Origin: Methanococcoides sp. LMO-2
Lineage (GTDB): Archaea; Halobacteriota; Methanosarcinia; Methanosarcinales; Methanosarcinaceae
Reading direction: 5' to 3'
Length of the DNA: 64,000 bases
Assembly: GCF_038432375.1 (NCBI RefSeq)
Contig: NZ_JBCAUS010000002.1
Coordinates: 496,001-560,000, forward strand
Below are positions 12,525 through 28,767 of the stretch, piece by piece. The notes beneath the pieces were generated by a model. It saw only the letters and a program-made list of their open reading frames with translations. It was not told the DNA's origin and did no database searches. The position numbers were made by a program, and so were the translations under genes. Positions within the stretch are counted from its first letter, which is position 1. Each line of letters starts with the position of its first letter.

Positions 12525-13181
12525 ATGGGAAATCAGGAACTTTTTGACAAACTTAAAAATGCAATAGTAAACCAGGATATCAACGGTTGCCCAGTAGCAA
12601 CACAGGAAGCACTCGATGCAGGAATTACTGCTTTCGACATAATCAACGAAGGATTAGCACCAGGCATGAAGATCGTCGGTGACAACTTCGAAGCAGCAAC
12701 AATCTACCTTCCACAGATCATGATGTCTGCAAAGGCAATGAACGCTGCAATGGAGATCCTTGAGCCAATCCTCGCAGAAGAGAAGGGCGACGACGAAGGT
12801 GTCGGAACAGCTGTAACATTCGTACAGGAAGGAGATATTCACGATATCGGCCACCGCCTTGTTACAACAATGCTCGGTGCAAACGGATTTGATATCATCG
12901 ACCTCGGAACAGATATTCCAAACGAGGACGTTGTCGAAGCAATTGCAAAGAACAAGGGTAAGAAGATGATCCTTGTAGGTTCCGCACTTATGACAACCTC
13001 AATGCTCGGCCAGAAGGACGTAGTAAGGTTACTTGAAGAAGAGAACCTCAGAGGCGAAGTCAAGATCATGTTCGGTGGCGCACCAGTCACAGATGAATGG
13101 ATCGAAGAATGTGGCGCAGATGGCACAGCCGAAAACGCAGCAGATGCAGCAAGAGTAGCACTTAAGCTCATGAGCGCATAA
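12525..13181 (+). CDS. mtmC1: Monomethylamine corrinoid protein MtmC (copy 1)
   Basis: This is the 218-aa corrinoid protein that receives the methyl group from monomethylamine via MtmB and passes it to a methylcobamide:CoM methyltransferase. The N-terminal helical domain (residues 1-90) is followed by the B12-binding Rossmann domain with EGDIHDIGHRLV (His is the lower cobalt ligand), GSALMTTSM and FGGAPV. The start is set at MGNQELF because AAAGGTGA lies just upstream and because the second copy starts at the same residue; the in-frame extension upstream is not conserved. It is in an operon with mtmB1, 16 bases downstream. Confidence 0.95.
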   Translation: MGNQELFDKLKNAIVNQDINGCPVATQEALDAGITAFDIINEGLAPGMKIVGDNFEAATIYLPQIMMSAKAMNAAMEILEPILAEEKGDDEGVGTAVTFVQEGDIHDIGHRLVTTMLGANGFDIIDLGTDIPNEDVVEAIAKNKGKKMILVGSALMTTSMLGQKDVVRLLEEENLRGEVKIMFGGAPVTDEWIEECGADGTAENAADAARVALKLMSA

Positions 13182-13197
13182 ATTGGGGGAAAATAAA

Positions 13198-14574
13198 ATG
13201 ACATTCACTAAATCAGTAACTTGCTTTGATTTCTATGACCGTGCACAGACCGGTGAGAAGACAACCCAGGATGACTGGGACTTGATGACCATTCCAATGA
13301 AGGCAATGGAACTCAAACAGAAATACAACCTTGACTTTGGCACCGAGTTCGTTCCAACCGACAAGGACCAGATGGAGAGACTCTTCAAGGCAGGTTTCGA
13401 GATGCTCCTTGAGTGTGGTATCTACTGTACCGACACAAAGAGGATCGTCAAGTACACAGAAGACGAACTCTGGGATGCAATCAACAACCCTATGCCAGCA
13501 TTCCAGCTCGGTACCGGCAGAGATGCAGTACAGATGAAGAAGAGAGAAGTAGGCGACAAGAGAAAGCCAATCGTACAGGGCGGTCCAACCGGTTCCCCAA
13601 TCTCAGAAGAGATGTTCTCTGCAGTTCACATGAGCTATGCACTCGAGAAAGAAGTTGACACAATTGTAAATGGTGTCATGATGACAGTCCGTGGTAAGCC
13701 ACCTATACCAGGCAGCCCATACGAAGTTCTCGCAGCAAAGTCCGAAACAAGGATCATCAAGAACGCAGCAGCAATGGCTGGTAGGCCAGGTATGGCTGTT
13801 TAGGGACCAGAGACTTCCCTGTCTGCTCAGGGTAACATCGCTTCCGACTGTGTCGGCGGCCAGGTATGCAGTGACAGCCACGAAGTATCACAGCTCAACG
13901 AGCTTAAGATCGACCTCGATGCAATTGCAGTCATGGCTCACTACAAGGGCAACAGTGACATAATCATGGACGAGCAGATGCCAATCTTCGGTGGATACGC
14001 TGGCGGTATTGAAGAAACAACAATCGTAGATGTTGCAACCAGCCTTAACTCCATGATCATGAGCAGTGCAAGCTGGCACCTTGATGGTCCTGTCCACATC
14101 AGATGGGGATCCACCAACACCAGGGAAACCCTCCAGATCGCAGGATGGGCATGTGCAACAATCAGTGAGTTCACAGACCTTATGACCGGTAACCAGTACT
14201 ACCCATGCGCAGGACCATGCACAGAGATGTGCCTCCTCGAAGCAGCAGCACAGTCAGTAACTGACACAGCATCCGGCCGTGAGATCCTCTCAGGTGTCGC
14301 AGCAGCAAAGGGTGTCATCACCGACAAGACAACCGGTATGGAAGCAAGGATGATGGGAGAAGTCGCACGTGCAACAGCAGGTATGGACATCGACTCCGTC
14401 AACGCTGTACTCGACAAACTTGTTGCATCATACGAAGGTAACTACGCAGATGCACCACAGGGTAAGACCTTCCAGGAATGCTACGACGTTGCAACCGTCA
14501 CACCTACCGACGAGTACGTCAAGGTATACGAGGGTGCAAGGAAGAAACTCGAAGAGTTCGGTCTTTCATTCTAA
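13198..14574 (+). CDS. mtmB1: Monomethylamine methyltransferase MtmB (copy 1), with in-frame UAG read as pyrrolysine
   Basis: This enzyme transfers the methyl group of monomethylamine to the cobalt of MtmC. The frame has an amber TAG at 13801-13803 (codon 202) and continues in the same frame to TAA at 14572-14574, giving 458 residues, the usual MtmB length. Residue 202 is exactly where known MtmB proteins carry pyrrolysine, in the context RPGMAV-Pyl-GPETSLSAQGN. The ribosome site is an unusual run GGGGG at 13185-13189, ending 8 bases before the ATG. A hairpin/oligo-T terminator follows. No pyl genes lie in this window, so they must be elsewhere. Confidence 0.97.
13801..13803 (+). other. In-frame amber codon decoded as pyrrolysine (mtmB1)
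   Basis: TAG at codon 202 of mtmB1. Flanking codons and at least 40 following bases are nearly identical in the second copy, including the region where a PYLIS-type stem-loop is described in Methanosarcina mtmB. Confidence 0.95.
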
Positions 14575-22974: not shown

Positions 22975-24351
22975 ATGACATTCACAAAATCAGTAACTTG
23001 CTTTGATTTCTACGACCGTGCACAGACCGGAGAAAAGACAACTCAGGATGACTGGGACTTGATGACCATCCCAATGAAGGCGATGGAACTCAAGCAGAAA
23101 TACAACCTTGACTTTGGTAACGAGTTCGTTCCAACCGACAAGGACCAGATGGAGAGACTCTTCAAAGCAGGTTTCGACATGCTCCTTGAGTGTGGTATCT
23201 ACTGTACCGACACAAAGAGGATCGTCAAATACACAGAAGAAGAACTCTGGGATGCAATCAACAACCCAATGCCAGCATTCCAGCTCGGTACCGGCAGAGA
23301 TGCAGTACAGATGAAGAAGAGAGAAATAGGCGACAAGAGAAAGCCTATAGTACAGGGTGGTCCAACCGGTTCCCCAATCTCAGAAGAGGTGTTCTCTGCA
23401 GTTCACATGAGCTATGCACTCGAGAAAGAAGTTGACACAATTGTAAATGGTGTCATGATGACGGTTCGTGGTAGGCCACCTATACCAGGCAGCCCATACG
23501 AAGTTCTCGCATCAAAGTCCGAAACAAGGATAATCAAGAACGCAGCAGCAATGGCTGGTAGGCCAGGTATGGCTGTTTAGGGACCAGAGACCTCCCTGTC
23601 CGCTCAGGGTAACATCGCTTCCGACTGTGTCGGCGGCCAGGTCACAAGTGACAGCCACGAAGTATCACAGCTCAACGAGCTTAAGATCGACCTCGATGCA
23701 ATTGCAGTCATGGCTCACTACAAGGGCAACAGTGACATAATCATGGACGAGCAGATGCCAATCTTCGGTGGATACGCTGGTGGTGTTGAAGAAACAACAA
23801 TCGTAGATGTTGCAACTAGCATTAACTCCATGATCATGAGCAGTGCAAGCTGGCACCTTGATGGTCCTGTCCACATCAGATGGGGATCCACCAACACCAG
23901 GGAAACCCTCCAGATCGCAGGATGGGCATGTGCAACAATCAGTGAGTTCACAGACCTTATGACCGGTAACCAGTACTACCCATGTGCAGGACCATGCACA
24001 GAGATGTGCCTCCTCGAAGCAGCAGCACAGTCAGTAACTGACACAGCATCAGGCCGTGAGATCCTCTCAGGTGTCGCATCTGCAAAGGGTGTCATCACTG
24101 ACAAGACAACCGGTATGGAAGCAAGGATGATGGGAGAAGTCGCACGTGCAACAGCAGGTATGGACATCGACTCCGTAAACGCTGTACTCGACAAGCTTGT
24201 CGCATCATACGAGGGCGACTACGCAAATGCACCACAGGGTAAGACATTCCAGGAATGCTACGACGTTGCAACCGTCACACCAACCGATGAGTACGTCAAG
24301 GTATACGAGGGTGCAAGGAAGAAACTCGAAGAGTTCGGTCTTACATTCTAA
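22975..24351 (+). CDS. mtmB2: Monomethylamine methyltransferase MtmB (copy 2), with in-frame UAG read as pyrrolysine
   Basis: This is the second copy of the pyrrolysine-containing methyltransferase. The amber codon is at 23578-23580 (codon 202) and the frame continues to TAA at 24349-24351, again 458 residues. Protein differences from copy 1 are few and conservative (for example T/N near residue 48 and V-T-S-D for V-C-S-D after the amber codon). The ribosome site is GGGGG at 22962-22966, 8 bases before the ATG, as in copy 1. Retaining the frame after the amber codon in both copies rules out a pseudogene. Confidence 0.97.
23578..23580 (+). other. In-frame amber codon decoded as pyrrolysine (mtmB2)
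   Basis: TAG at codon 202 of mtmB2. The upstream 20 bases and downstream GGACCAGAGAC are the same as in copy 1. Confidence 0.95.
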
Positions 24352-27176: not shown

Positions 27177-27590
27177 ATGAAAGAAATGAATATCCTCATA
27201 GTAGAAGATGAGATGATCGTTGCAATGATGATCAAACTTAAACTTCTGGATATGGGATACGGATTTGCAGGGCATGCCACAACCGGGGAAGATGCGATCA
27301 AAATGGTAAAAGAAGTTAAGCCAGACCTCATTATCATGGACATATTCCTTAAAGGGAAGATGGATGGTATAGATGCTGCAAGTGAAATACTCAAATCATA
27401 TGTTGTTCCGATTATCTTTCTTACAGGCGACTCATCAAAAGAGACAAGAACAAAAGCATCCATTGCGAATCCTGTCGGGTACCTGCAAAAGCCATTCATG
27501 GATGAGGAACTGGAATATGTTATTGAGTCAGCCTTCTGCAAAGCCAAAAGTCCGGCGTTTAAGCAGATGGCCCAGGATATATCTGCTTAA
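27177..27590 (+). CDS. Single-domain response regulator (orphan)
   Basis: This 137-aa receiver domain has VVED-type acidic residues (ILIVEDEM), the phospho-Asp in LIIMDIFLKG (about residue 54), Thr in FLTGDS and Lys in LQKPFMDE. The start is the ATG at 27177, because GAGAGGGAG is directly upstream; a longer in-frame start would add a poorly conserved tail. It resembles the regulator at 21454-21864 and has no output domain and no kinase beside it. It could share the kinase encoded 6 kb upstream. Confidence 0.85.
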   Translation: MKEMNILIVEDEMIVAMMIKLKLLDMGYGFAGHATTGEDAIKMVKEVKPDLIIMDIFLKGKMDGIDAASEILKSYVVPIIFLTGDSSKETRTKASIANPVGYLQKPFMDEELEYVIESAFCKAKSPAFKQMAQDISA

Positions 27591-27637: not shown

Positions 27638-27745
27638 TACGTGGAGCTTAGGTCACGAGCAGAGGTTTGTAAGGAATAATTCATTGACCTTGCTACTCGA
27701 AACGATCTCTGCATCAATGACCTCAGCTCCACAACAACCTCTATT
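27638..27745 (+). ncRNA. Candidate structured RNA 1: 15-bp closing stem
   Basis: The 15 bases at 27641-27655 (GTGGAGCTTAGGTCA) are complementary to 27718-27732 with one mismatch. Inside, GCAGAG (27659-27664) pairs with CTCTGC (27707-27712). A TATA box GATATAAAA (27612-27620) sits about 25 bases before the start of the stem, where transcription would begin, and a T-rich stretch follows at 27741-27748. No gene supports this region. A canonical tRNA is excluded (no T-arm). The class is unknown, and a regulatory palindrome is the alternative. Confidence 0.5.
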
Positions 27746-27954
27746 TTTCAGAATAATACATCCAAATGTCATTACATACCTGGGATAATAACAACCAGGA
27801 TGTTGCGACATGCCACAAAGAGTTTGAATTGATCCTACCAAACTTAAATACACCATTTTCAACTAATTAGATCTACAATATCTTAAGAGAAATTCATTAA
27901 AATTTCAGGTTAAATTATTTTACTCGAAAGTTTTATATAATATTGAGTAGAGGG

Positions 27955-28095
27955 AGGGCTATATTCCCGGGTGGGAGAAATCCGTGGAACTTCCACGGTG
28001 ACCCAGAGTCACCAAATCTTTTCTCCCCAGAAGAACCACCTTATGTTACCCCCCAATTGACTCCCCATCTTCTCCCACCCCACACCCCCCTTTAG
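27955..28095 (+). ncRNA. Candidate structured, C-rich small RNA 2
   Basis: A TATA box TTTTATATAA (27931-27940) predicts a start near 27957. GGGTGGGAGAA (27969-27979) is perfectly complementary to TTCTCCCACCC (28070-28080), an 11-bp closing stem. Within it are hairpins CCGTGG/CCACGG (27982-27998) and GTGAC/GTCAC (27998-28012; the two share one base). Between them and the closing stem are unpaired C-rich segments (28023-28028, 28049-28054, 28062-28066), and a C6-T3 end lies at 28085-28093. The sequence is unlike coding DNA. The next gene has its own TATA box at about 28149, so this looks like a separate transcript. Confidence 0.6.
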
Positions 28096-28242
28096 ATCTT
28101 TTAATTCCTACACAGATATCCGGATAGCTCTCTGGTAAAGTCTATGTACTTATAAATACAATATGAATATCGGGTGAGGGTGTAGATGCCTTTCTCTTCT
28201 GATCGCTTATGAAAGTTCAAAGACACTAAAGGAACTTTGAGT

Positions 28243-28767
28243 ATGAAATTCAATAAGGAACAGGGCAGGTACATTATTCTCGGTAGTATAGATGGTCTTC
28301 TGGCCGTGCTTGGTGTAGTGATCGCAACATCCCATGTTGTTGATGATCCATCAATTATCATTAATGCTGCTCTTGGAGGTGCTATTGCACTGGCCATGAC
28401 CAACGGCATCGGATCGTACCTTGCAGAAAGCGCGGTCGAATACGGTCATCTCGCTGAGCTTGAAAAACCATTGCTAAGAAGTCTGGAATCTACAAAACTG
28501 GAAGCTCAGACAAAGAAGAAGATATGGAACGATTCCATAGCTCATGGAGGATCAAGCTTCATCGGGTCCCTTGTCCCGATCTCACCATTCATACTCCTCG
28601 ATGAAATGGCCCTTGAGGCATCGGTCGTATTGAGCATTTCAGTACTTGCAGTACTTGGGGTCTACTCAGGGAAGATTGCTAAGCAAAGTGCGATCAAACA
28701 TGCTGTGCGAATGGTAGGACTTGGTATACTGATCGTTGCTGCTGTTACACTGCTCGGACTTGAATAA
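28243..28767 (+). CDS. VIT/CCC1-family predicted Fe2+/Mn2+ transporter
   Basis: This 174-aa membrane protein is of the vacuolar iron transporter family. It starts with YIILGSIDGLLAVLGVVIA (TM1) and a second span rich in Gly/Ala with SYLAESAVEYGHLAELEK, where acidic residues at the membrane surface are typical of the family. Three further spans follow. The start is the ATG at 28243; a TTG six bases earlier sits too close to the GGAA site. The TATA box TATAAATA at about 28149-28156 gives a leader of about 65 nt. It probably exports or stores iron or manganese; the direction is not determinable. Confidence 0.8.
   Translation: MKFNKEQGRYIILGSIDGLLAVLGVVIATSHVVDDPSIIINAALGGAIALAMTNGIGSYLAESAVEYGHLAELEKPLLRSLESTKLEAQTKKKIWNDSIAHGGSSFIGSLVPISPFILLDEMALEASVVLSISVLAVLGVYSGKIAKQSAIKHAVRMVGLGILIVAAVTLLGLE

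Follow-up and report, generated by a model that had tools for sequence, protein, structure and literature searches.

The analysed stretch of 64,000 nucleotides (the window) is part of contig 2 of a Methanococcoides genome (G000). Within it, a response regulator gene (27180–27590) and a VIT-family gene (28243–28767) flank a locus where an earlier note had proposed a trans-acting sRNA that tunes methylamine genes. We find a putative RNA gene here that is carried by four Methanococcoides genomes: this one, G019, M. vulcani (G025) and G024. Its features are the following:

27925–27939, plus strand: putative BRE/TATA promoter, CGAAAG-TTTTATATA, a sequence motif of canonical archaeal form
27963–28094, plus strand: structured sRNA gene body, putative transcript of ~130 nt with approximate ends, based on the fold z score, the identity to G019 and the covariance-model homologues
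27969–27979, plus strand: closing stem P1, 5' strand, GGGUGGGAGAA, with GGGUGGGAGA invariant in four genomes
27984–27993, plus strand: P2, 5' strand, GUGG-AA-CUUC, retained in four genomes, one pair being C-G in two and U-A in two
27997–28013, plus strand: hairpin P3, GGUGAC-CCAGA-GUCACC, closing pair C-G or U-A
28030–28039, plus strand: P2, 3' strand, GAAG-AA-CCAC, from the four-sequence alignment
28040–28069, plus strand: C-rich linker between P2 and P1 with two C tracts, predicted single-stranded, proposed anti-ribosome-site region
28070–28080, plus strand: P1, 3' strand, UUCUCCCACCC, with a single G-C to G-U change, in G024
28081–28094, plus strand: C-rich 3' tail, CACACCCCCCUUUA, unpaired in the fold, of differing length among species

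The TATA box that had been noticed ahead of the RNA is part of a canonical BRE/TATA element ending at 27939, and we predict that this promoter is used. The TATA-to-TSS spacing is 19–22 nt in Methanolobus (PMC5378194); transcription is thus expected to start at about 27959–27963, shortly ahead of the stem. The homologue in G019 retains the promoter as CGAAA..TTTATATA, and the copies in M. vulcani and G024 are likewise preceded by a TATA box. We rejected a coding reading, as the 50-codon open reading frame at 27943–28095 is disrupted by one-base indels between the 98% identical copies of this genome and G019.

Two further elements were observed next to this gene. Ahead of the VIT-family gene, a block of 48 bp (28135–28182) contains a TATA box and is 90–92% identical in M. 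vulcani, G018 and G020; the intergenic DNA near it is not conserved likewise, and the block is probably the promoter plus operator of that gene. Between the response regulator gene and the sRNA gene lies a second, stronger hairpin (27641–27732, z −6.25, either strand) with the sequence GUGGAGCU-AGGUCA...UGACCU-AGCUCCAC, which has no Rfam match. A related, differently filled hairpin is found at the same place in M. vulcani (L032:1261–1372). Pairing of the sRNA with this hairpin was discarded: in M. vulcani, GGGGGG is opposite CCCCC, which is not the case here, and the pairing is equalled by 13% of the shuffles here and by 4% in M. vulcani.

Fold and conserved helices

The 11-bp stem described in the earlier note, GGGTGGGAGAA (27969–27979) with TTCTCCCACCC (28070–28080), is perfect and lies exactly at these coordinates. 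Taken alone, this stem is within chance, since 1.3 inverted repeats of 11 bp at such spacing are expected in Markov-1 sequences of window length and two are seen in the window. The whole fold is beyond chance. The segment reported earlier has a minimum free energy of −41.0 compared to −28.0 ± 3.1 for its shuffles (z −4.14, 0/200 as good), and for 27963–28094 z is −4.54, again with no shuffle as good. The structured RNA that had been proposed is thus borne out (z −4.1 to −4.5). The fold is far more stable than shuffles in three of the four homologues, the exception being the G024 copy, which does no better than its shuffles (z −0.18). Rfam 15 covariance models gave no match over the RNA at the gathering score, and nothing relevant at permissive thresholds (E≤5 or 10).

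Comparison of the four homologous sequences shows that the helices P1, P2 and P3 are kept. Together they are paired in 97.9% of the cells of the alignment compared to at most 61% with partners slid; the model used to fit the alignment contains P1–P3, which favours these helices too. P1 (11 bp) is the most invariant part and includes 10 bases that are identical across the four genomes. We detected one compensatory exchange from C-G to U-A in P2 and one in P3; with four sequences and two such pairs, a number reached in 129 of 500 shuffle controls, the covariation is weak. The earlier note had made its proposal depend on compensatory changes in the 11-bp stem; P1 has none, just one change from G-C to G-U, and the outcome is neutral.

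The 'two internal hairpins' of the note do appear in the minimum-energy fold of this genome, which prefers two local hairpins and gives P2 a probability of 0.0, but the comparison backs the long-range P2 together with hairpin P3. We rejected the local-hairpin fold as the conserved structure, as its pairs drop to 2–3 of 5–6 in G024, where P2 is retained.

A linker of 30–40 nt is predicted to be single-stranded. Its mean unpaired probability is 0.79 (28040–28069), and the C tracts reach 0.91–0.99, in agreement with the unpaired C-rich tracts noticed before. The linker motif ACU(C/U)CCCCAU is common to the four genomes, and the remaining linker sequence differs between species. This pattern could also be explained by an RNA that binds a protein, in which the C tracts and the invariant strand GGGUGGGAGA of the stem would serve as protein sites and the RNA would titrate or scaffold the protein. 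The invariance of P1, with 10 identical bases in four genomes, goes beyond the needs of pairing alone, and the differing linker sequences point in the same direction. However, RNAs that act against ribosome sites likewise need conserved C tracts, and neither a candidate protein nor a known binding motif was found. We consider protein binding possible, though rather unlikely. A guide RNA of the H/ACA or C/D type was rejected, as a box C/D motif is lacking and the ACA that follows P1 is not retained.

Homologues and genomic context

With blastn, we found a 98% identical copy in G019 and a 73% identical copy in M. vulcani. A covariance model whose sole sources were this genome and G019 (R1) recovers the M. 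vulcani copy at an E value of 3.8e-11 and the G024 copy at 1.5e-4, neither of which was used in building it. Weak R1 matches in four further genomes (G030, G035, G096 and G107) were gone with a model of all four copies (R2). Searching R2 over 186 Methanosarcinales genomes yielded no further clear copy beyond the four carriers, save for a weak second match in M. vulcani, and each carrier genome has one good copy. In M. alaskense, M. seepicolus, G018 and G020, the syntenic region is present without the RNA. Plasmid records gave no match to the RNA, and none of the 70 pattern matches in viral contigs was convincing under R2. In M. seepicolus LLY, copies of the locus on two scaffolds (L034 and L035) match the window genes at identical coordinates and identities, which reflects either a recent duplication or an assembly artefact.

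The RNA comes after the response regulator gene in this genome, G019 and M. vulcani. In M. vulcani, the next gene after the RNA is bioY-like (named from its translation). The locus of the G024 copy is unrelated: its neighbours are an AIG2-like gene on one side and, on the other, a geranylgeranyl-reductase-like gene facing the RNA. The alignment between the M. vulcani and G024 loci begins at the TATA box and does not extend past the 3' end of the RNA (205 columns, 71%, E 3e-15). As the similarity stops there, promoter and RNA form a conserved, self-contained unit by sequence comparison. The RNA shares 97.8% identity between this genome and G019, compared to 78–84% for the 20–30 bases flanking it on each side; some neighbouring genes are as conserved as the RNA, and this contrast is thus mild support. 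An independent promoter and a conserved non-coding unit that is not tied to any one cis gene are what one expects of a trans-acting intergenic sRNA, and we find both here.

If the RNA were a cis-acting leader of the VIT-family gene that follows it, or the 3' UTR of the response regulator gene ahead of it, this would account for its position between these genes and on their strand in three genomes. However, the RNA has its own promoter, and the VIT-family gene is fronted by a second conserved promoter block (28135–28182). Furthermore, the RNA and the VIT-family gene are separated in M. vulcani by about 1.4 kb including the bioY-like gene, and in G024 the RNA adjoins neither the VIT-family gene nor the response regulator gene and has no same-strand gene downstream, the next gene being convergent. 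We thus regard a leader or 3' UTR as highly improbable.

The occurrence at two different loci, the patchy presence and the perfect 11-bp terminal inverted repeats could instead mark a small mobile DNA element, or the relic of one, rather than an RNA gene. Against this stand the single good copy per genome, with no target duplication seen, the conserved promoter that lies outside the repeats and travels along, and the internal helices that are conserved with compensatory changes. Overall, a mobile element seems unlikely.

The weak second match in M. vulcani (L163:5124–5246 = G025:C12:162123–162245, R2 E value 0.0024) has recognisable inner helices and has lost the closing stem. It lies within an island that holds a PLD helicase and two BrxC/D-like ATPases. 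One could imagine an autonomous RNA gene that relocates with its own promoter among chromosomal sites of Methanococcoides, with a diverged copy in the BREX/PLD-helicase defence island of M. vulcani, and that would act as a general anti-Shine-Dalgarno RNA instead of serving a single regulon; we judge this very unlikely.

Complementarity to methylamine genes

The earlier note had linked the RNA to methylamine genes by short complementary words, and we found these words as quoted: CCCCCAATT (28050–28058) and CCCCCTTT (28086–28093) in the RNA, AATTGGGGG (13181–13189) at the mtmB1 ribosome site and AAAGGGGG (17634 and 24468) ahead of FilR1 and a microprotein gene. In this genome, the perfect 9-nt and 8-nt matches at these sites would fit an sRNA that tunes all three genes. 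The mtmB1 match is, however, kept in none of the three other carriers. The mtmB1 ribosome site is AATAGGGGG in G019, the nearest relative, where the sRNA segment stays identical, and AATTAGGGG in M. vulcani and G024, neither of whose sRNAs has CCCCCAATT; in its place are CCCCCATAC in M. vulcani and CCTCCATGA in G024. Similar sites also occur in non-carriers, as G018 and G020 hold AATTGGGG at the mtmB1 ribosome site.

The words themselves are common. AATTGGGGG occurs 10 times in the genome, one occurrence being the sRNA gene itself, compared to 5 times for the reversed control; among these occurrences, only the mtmB1 site lies at ribosome-site distance from a clear start. AAAGGGGG occurs three times on the plus strand of the window alone. 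A check of pairing against 5' regions, which the note had suggested, covered the 56 genes of the window: the real linker and tail reach a mean of −12.4 kcal/mol compared to −13.5 kcal/mol for shuffled segments, mtmB1 ranks 7th of 56, and no mRNA pairing over background was found within the 64 kb. The complementary 8–9-mers are as expected from C-runs facing G-runs. Since the mtmB1 match is not conserved, ranks 7th of 56 and is equalled by shuffles, methylamine regulation by this RNA is unsupported, and tuning of mtmB1, FilR1 and the microprotein gene is scarcely to be expected. Of the original proposal, the independent, conserved and structured non-coding gene holds up whereas its role in methylamine regulation does not. 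Once relatives are compared, the 9-nt match to a methylamine gene, however striking, is thus background. The two mtmB genes of the window each contain a pyrrolysine insertion element (PYLIS_1; 13801–13900 and 23578–23677).

A candidate sRNA masking ribosome binding sites

We favour, with a probability of roughly 0.55, the reading that some Methanococcoides carry a stand-alone gene whose product is a trans-acting intergenic sRNA of ~130 nt, with a C-rich linker that would mask ribosome binding sites. The promoter at 27925–27939 would drive the gene, as its motif suggests, and P1, P2 and P3 would hold the linker, 30–40 nt by prediction, single-stranded. Most likely, the C tracts of the linker would then pair with G-rich ribosome binding sites on one mRNA or on a small set of mRNAs, and translation initiation would be blocked, as the Methanosarcina mazei RNAs sRNA162, sRNA154 and sRNA41 suggest by analogy.

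The best analogue appears to be sRNA162, which has conserved stem loops and a single-stranded linker of 39 nt, its most variable part, through which a ribosome binding site is masked; it is 191 nt long, has homologues in near relatives only and has a related second copy, sRNA171 (PMC3510493). The linker of this family covers the ribosome site of an ArsR-type regulator. The present RNA is likewise an intergenic archaeal sRNA with stem loops around a linker of ~30–40 nt that is predicted to be single-stranded, so that the architecture of sRNA162 and sRNA171 (stem loops and ~39 nt of single-stranded linker) is matched by prediction and as an analogy. Its homologues are also limited to close relatives, its linker also varies most, and the weak second match in M. 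vulcani parallels sRNA171. In contrast to sRNA162, it is only ~130 nt long and has a long closing stem that encloses everything. With R2 at E≤0.1 and Infernal's stricter filters, no match was found in Methanosarcinaceae outside Methanococcoides, and hence no detectable homology to sRNA162 or sRNA171. The present RNA thus seems to have the parts for ribosome-site masking, with a separate origin from sRNA162 as far as homology searches reach.

Both sRNA41 and sRNA154 of M. mazei mask ribosome binding sites (PMC5867862). The action proposed here is shared with sRNA41, whose targets are the ACDS (CODH/ACS) genes; R2 had no match in any Methanosarcina genome searched, which speaks indirectly, without a comparison to the sRNA41 sequence, against homology. 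Similarly, sRNA154 is stably structured and has a loop able to cover a ribosome binding site; it is under NrpR control through a GGTA-N6-TACC operator (PMC5867862, PMC3177094). On reading the promoter of the present RNA, no such operator was seen, and R2, being without a match in Methanosarcina, indicates no homology to sRNA154.

Masking of ribosome sites by the linker is what these analogues suggest for the present RNA. To our knowledge, work on archaeal sRNAs has so far covered very few of them, almost exclusively from M. mazei and haloarchaea. The RNA described here adds an unlisted, testable sRNA family in Methanococcoides, with a defined structure, a putative promoter and a linker that is predicted to be accessible.
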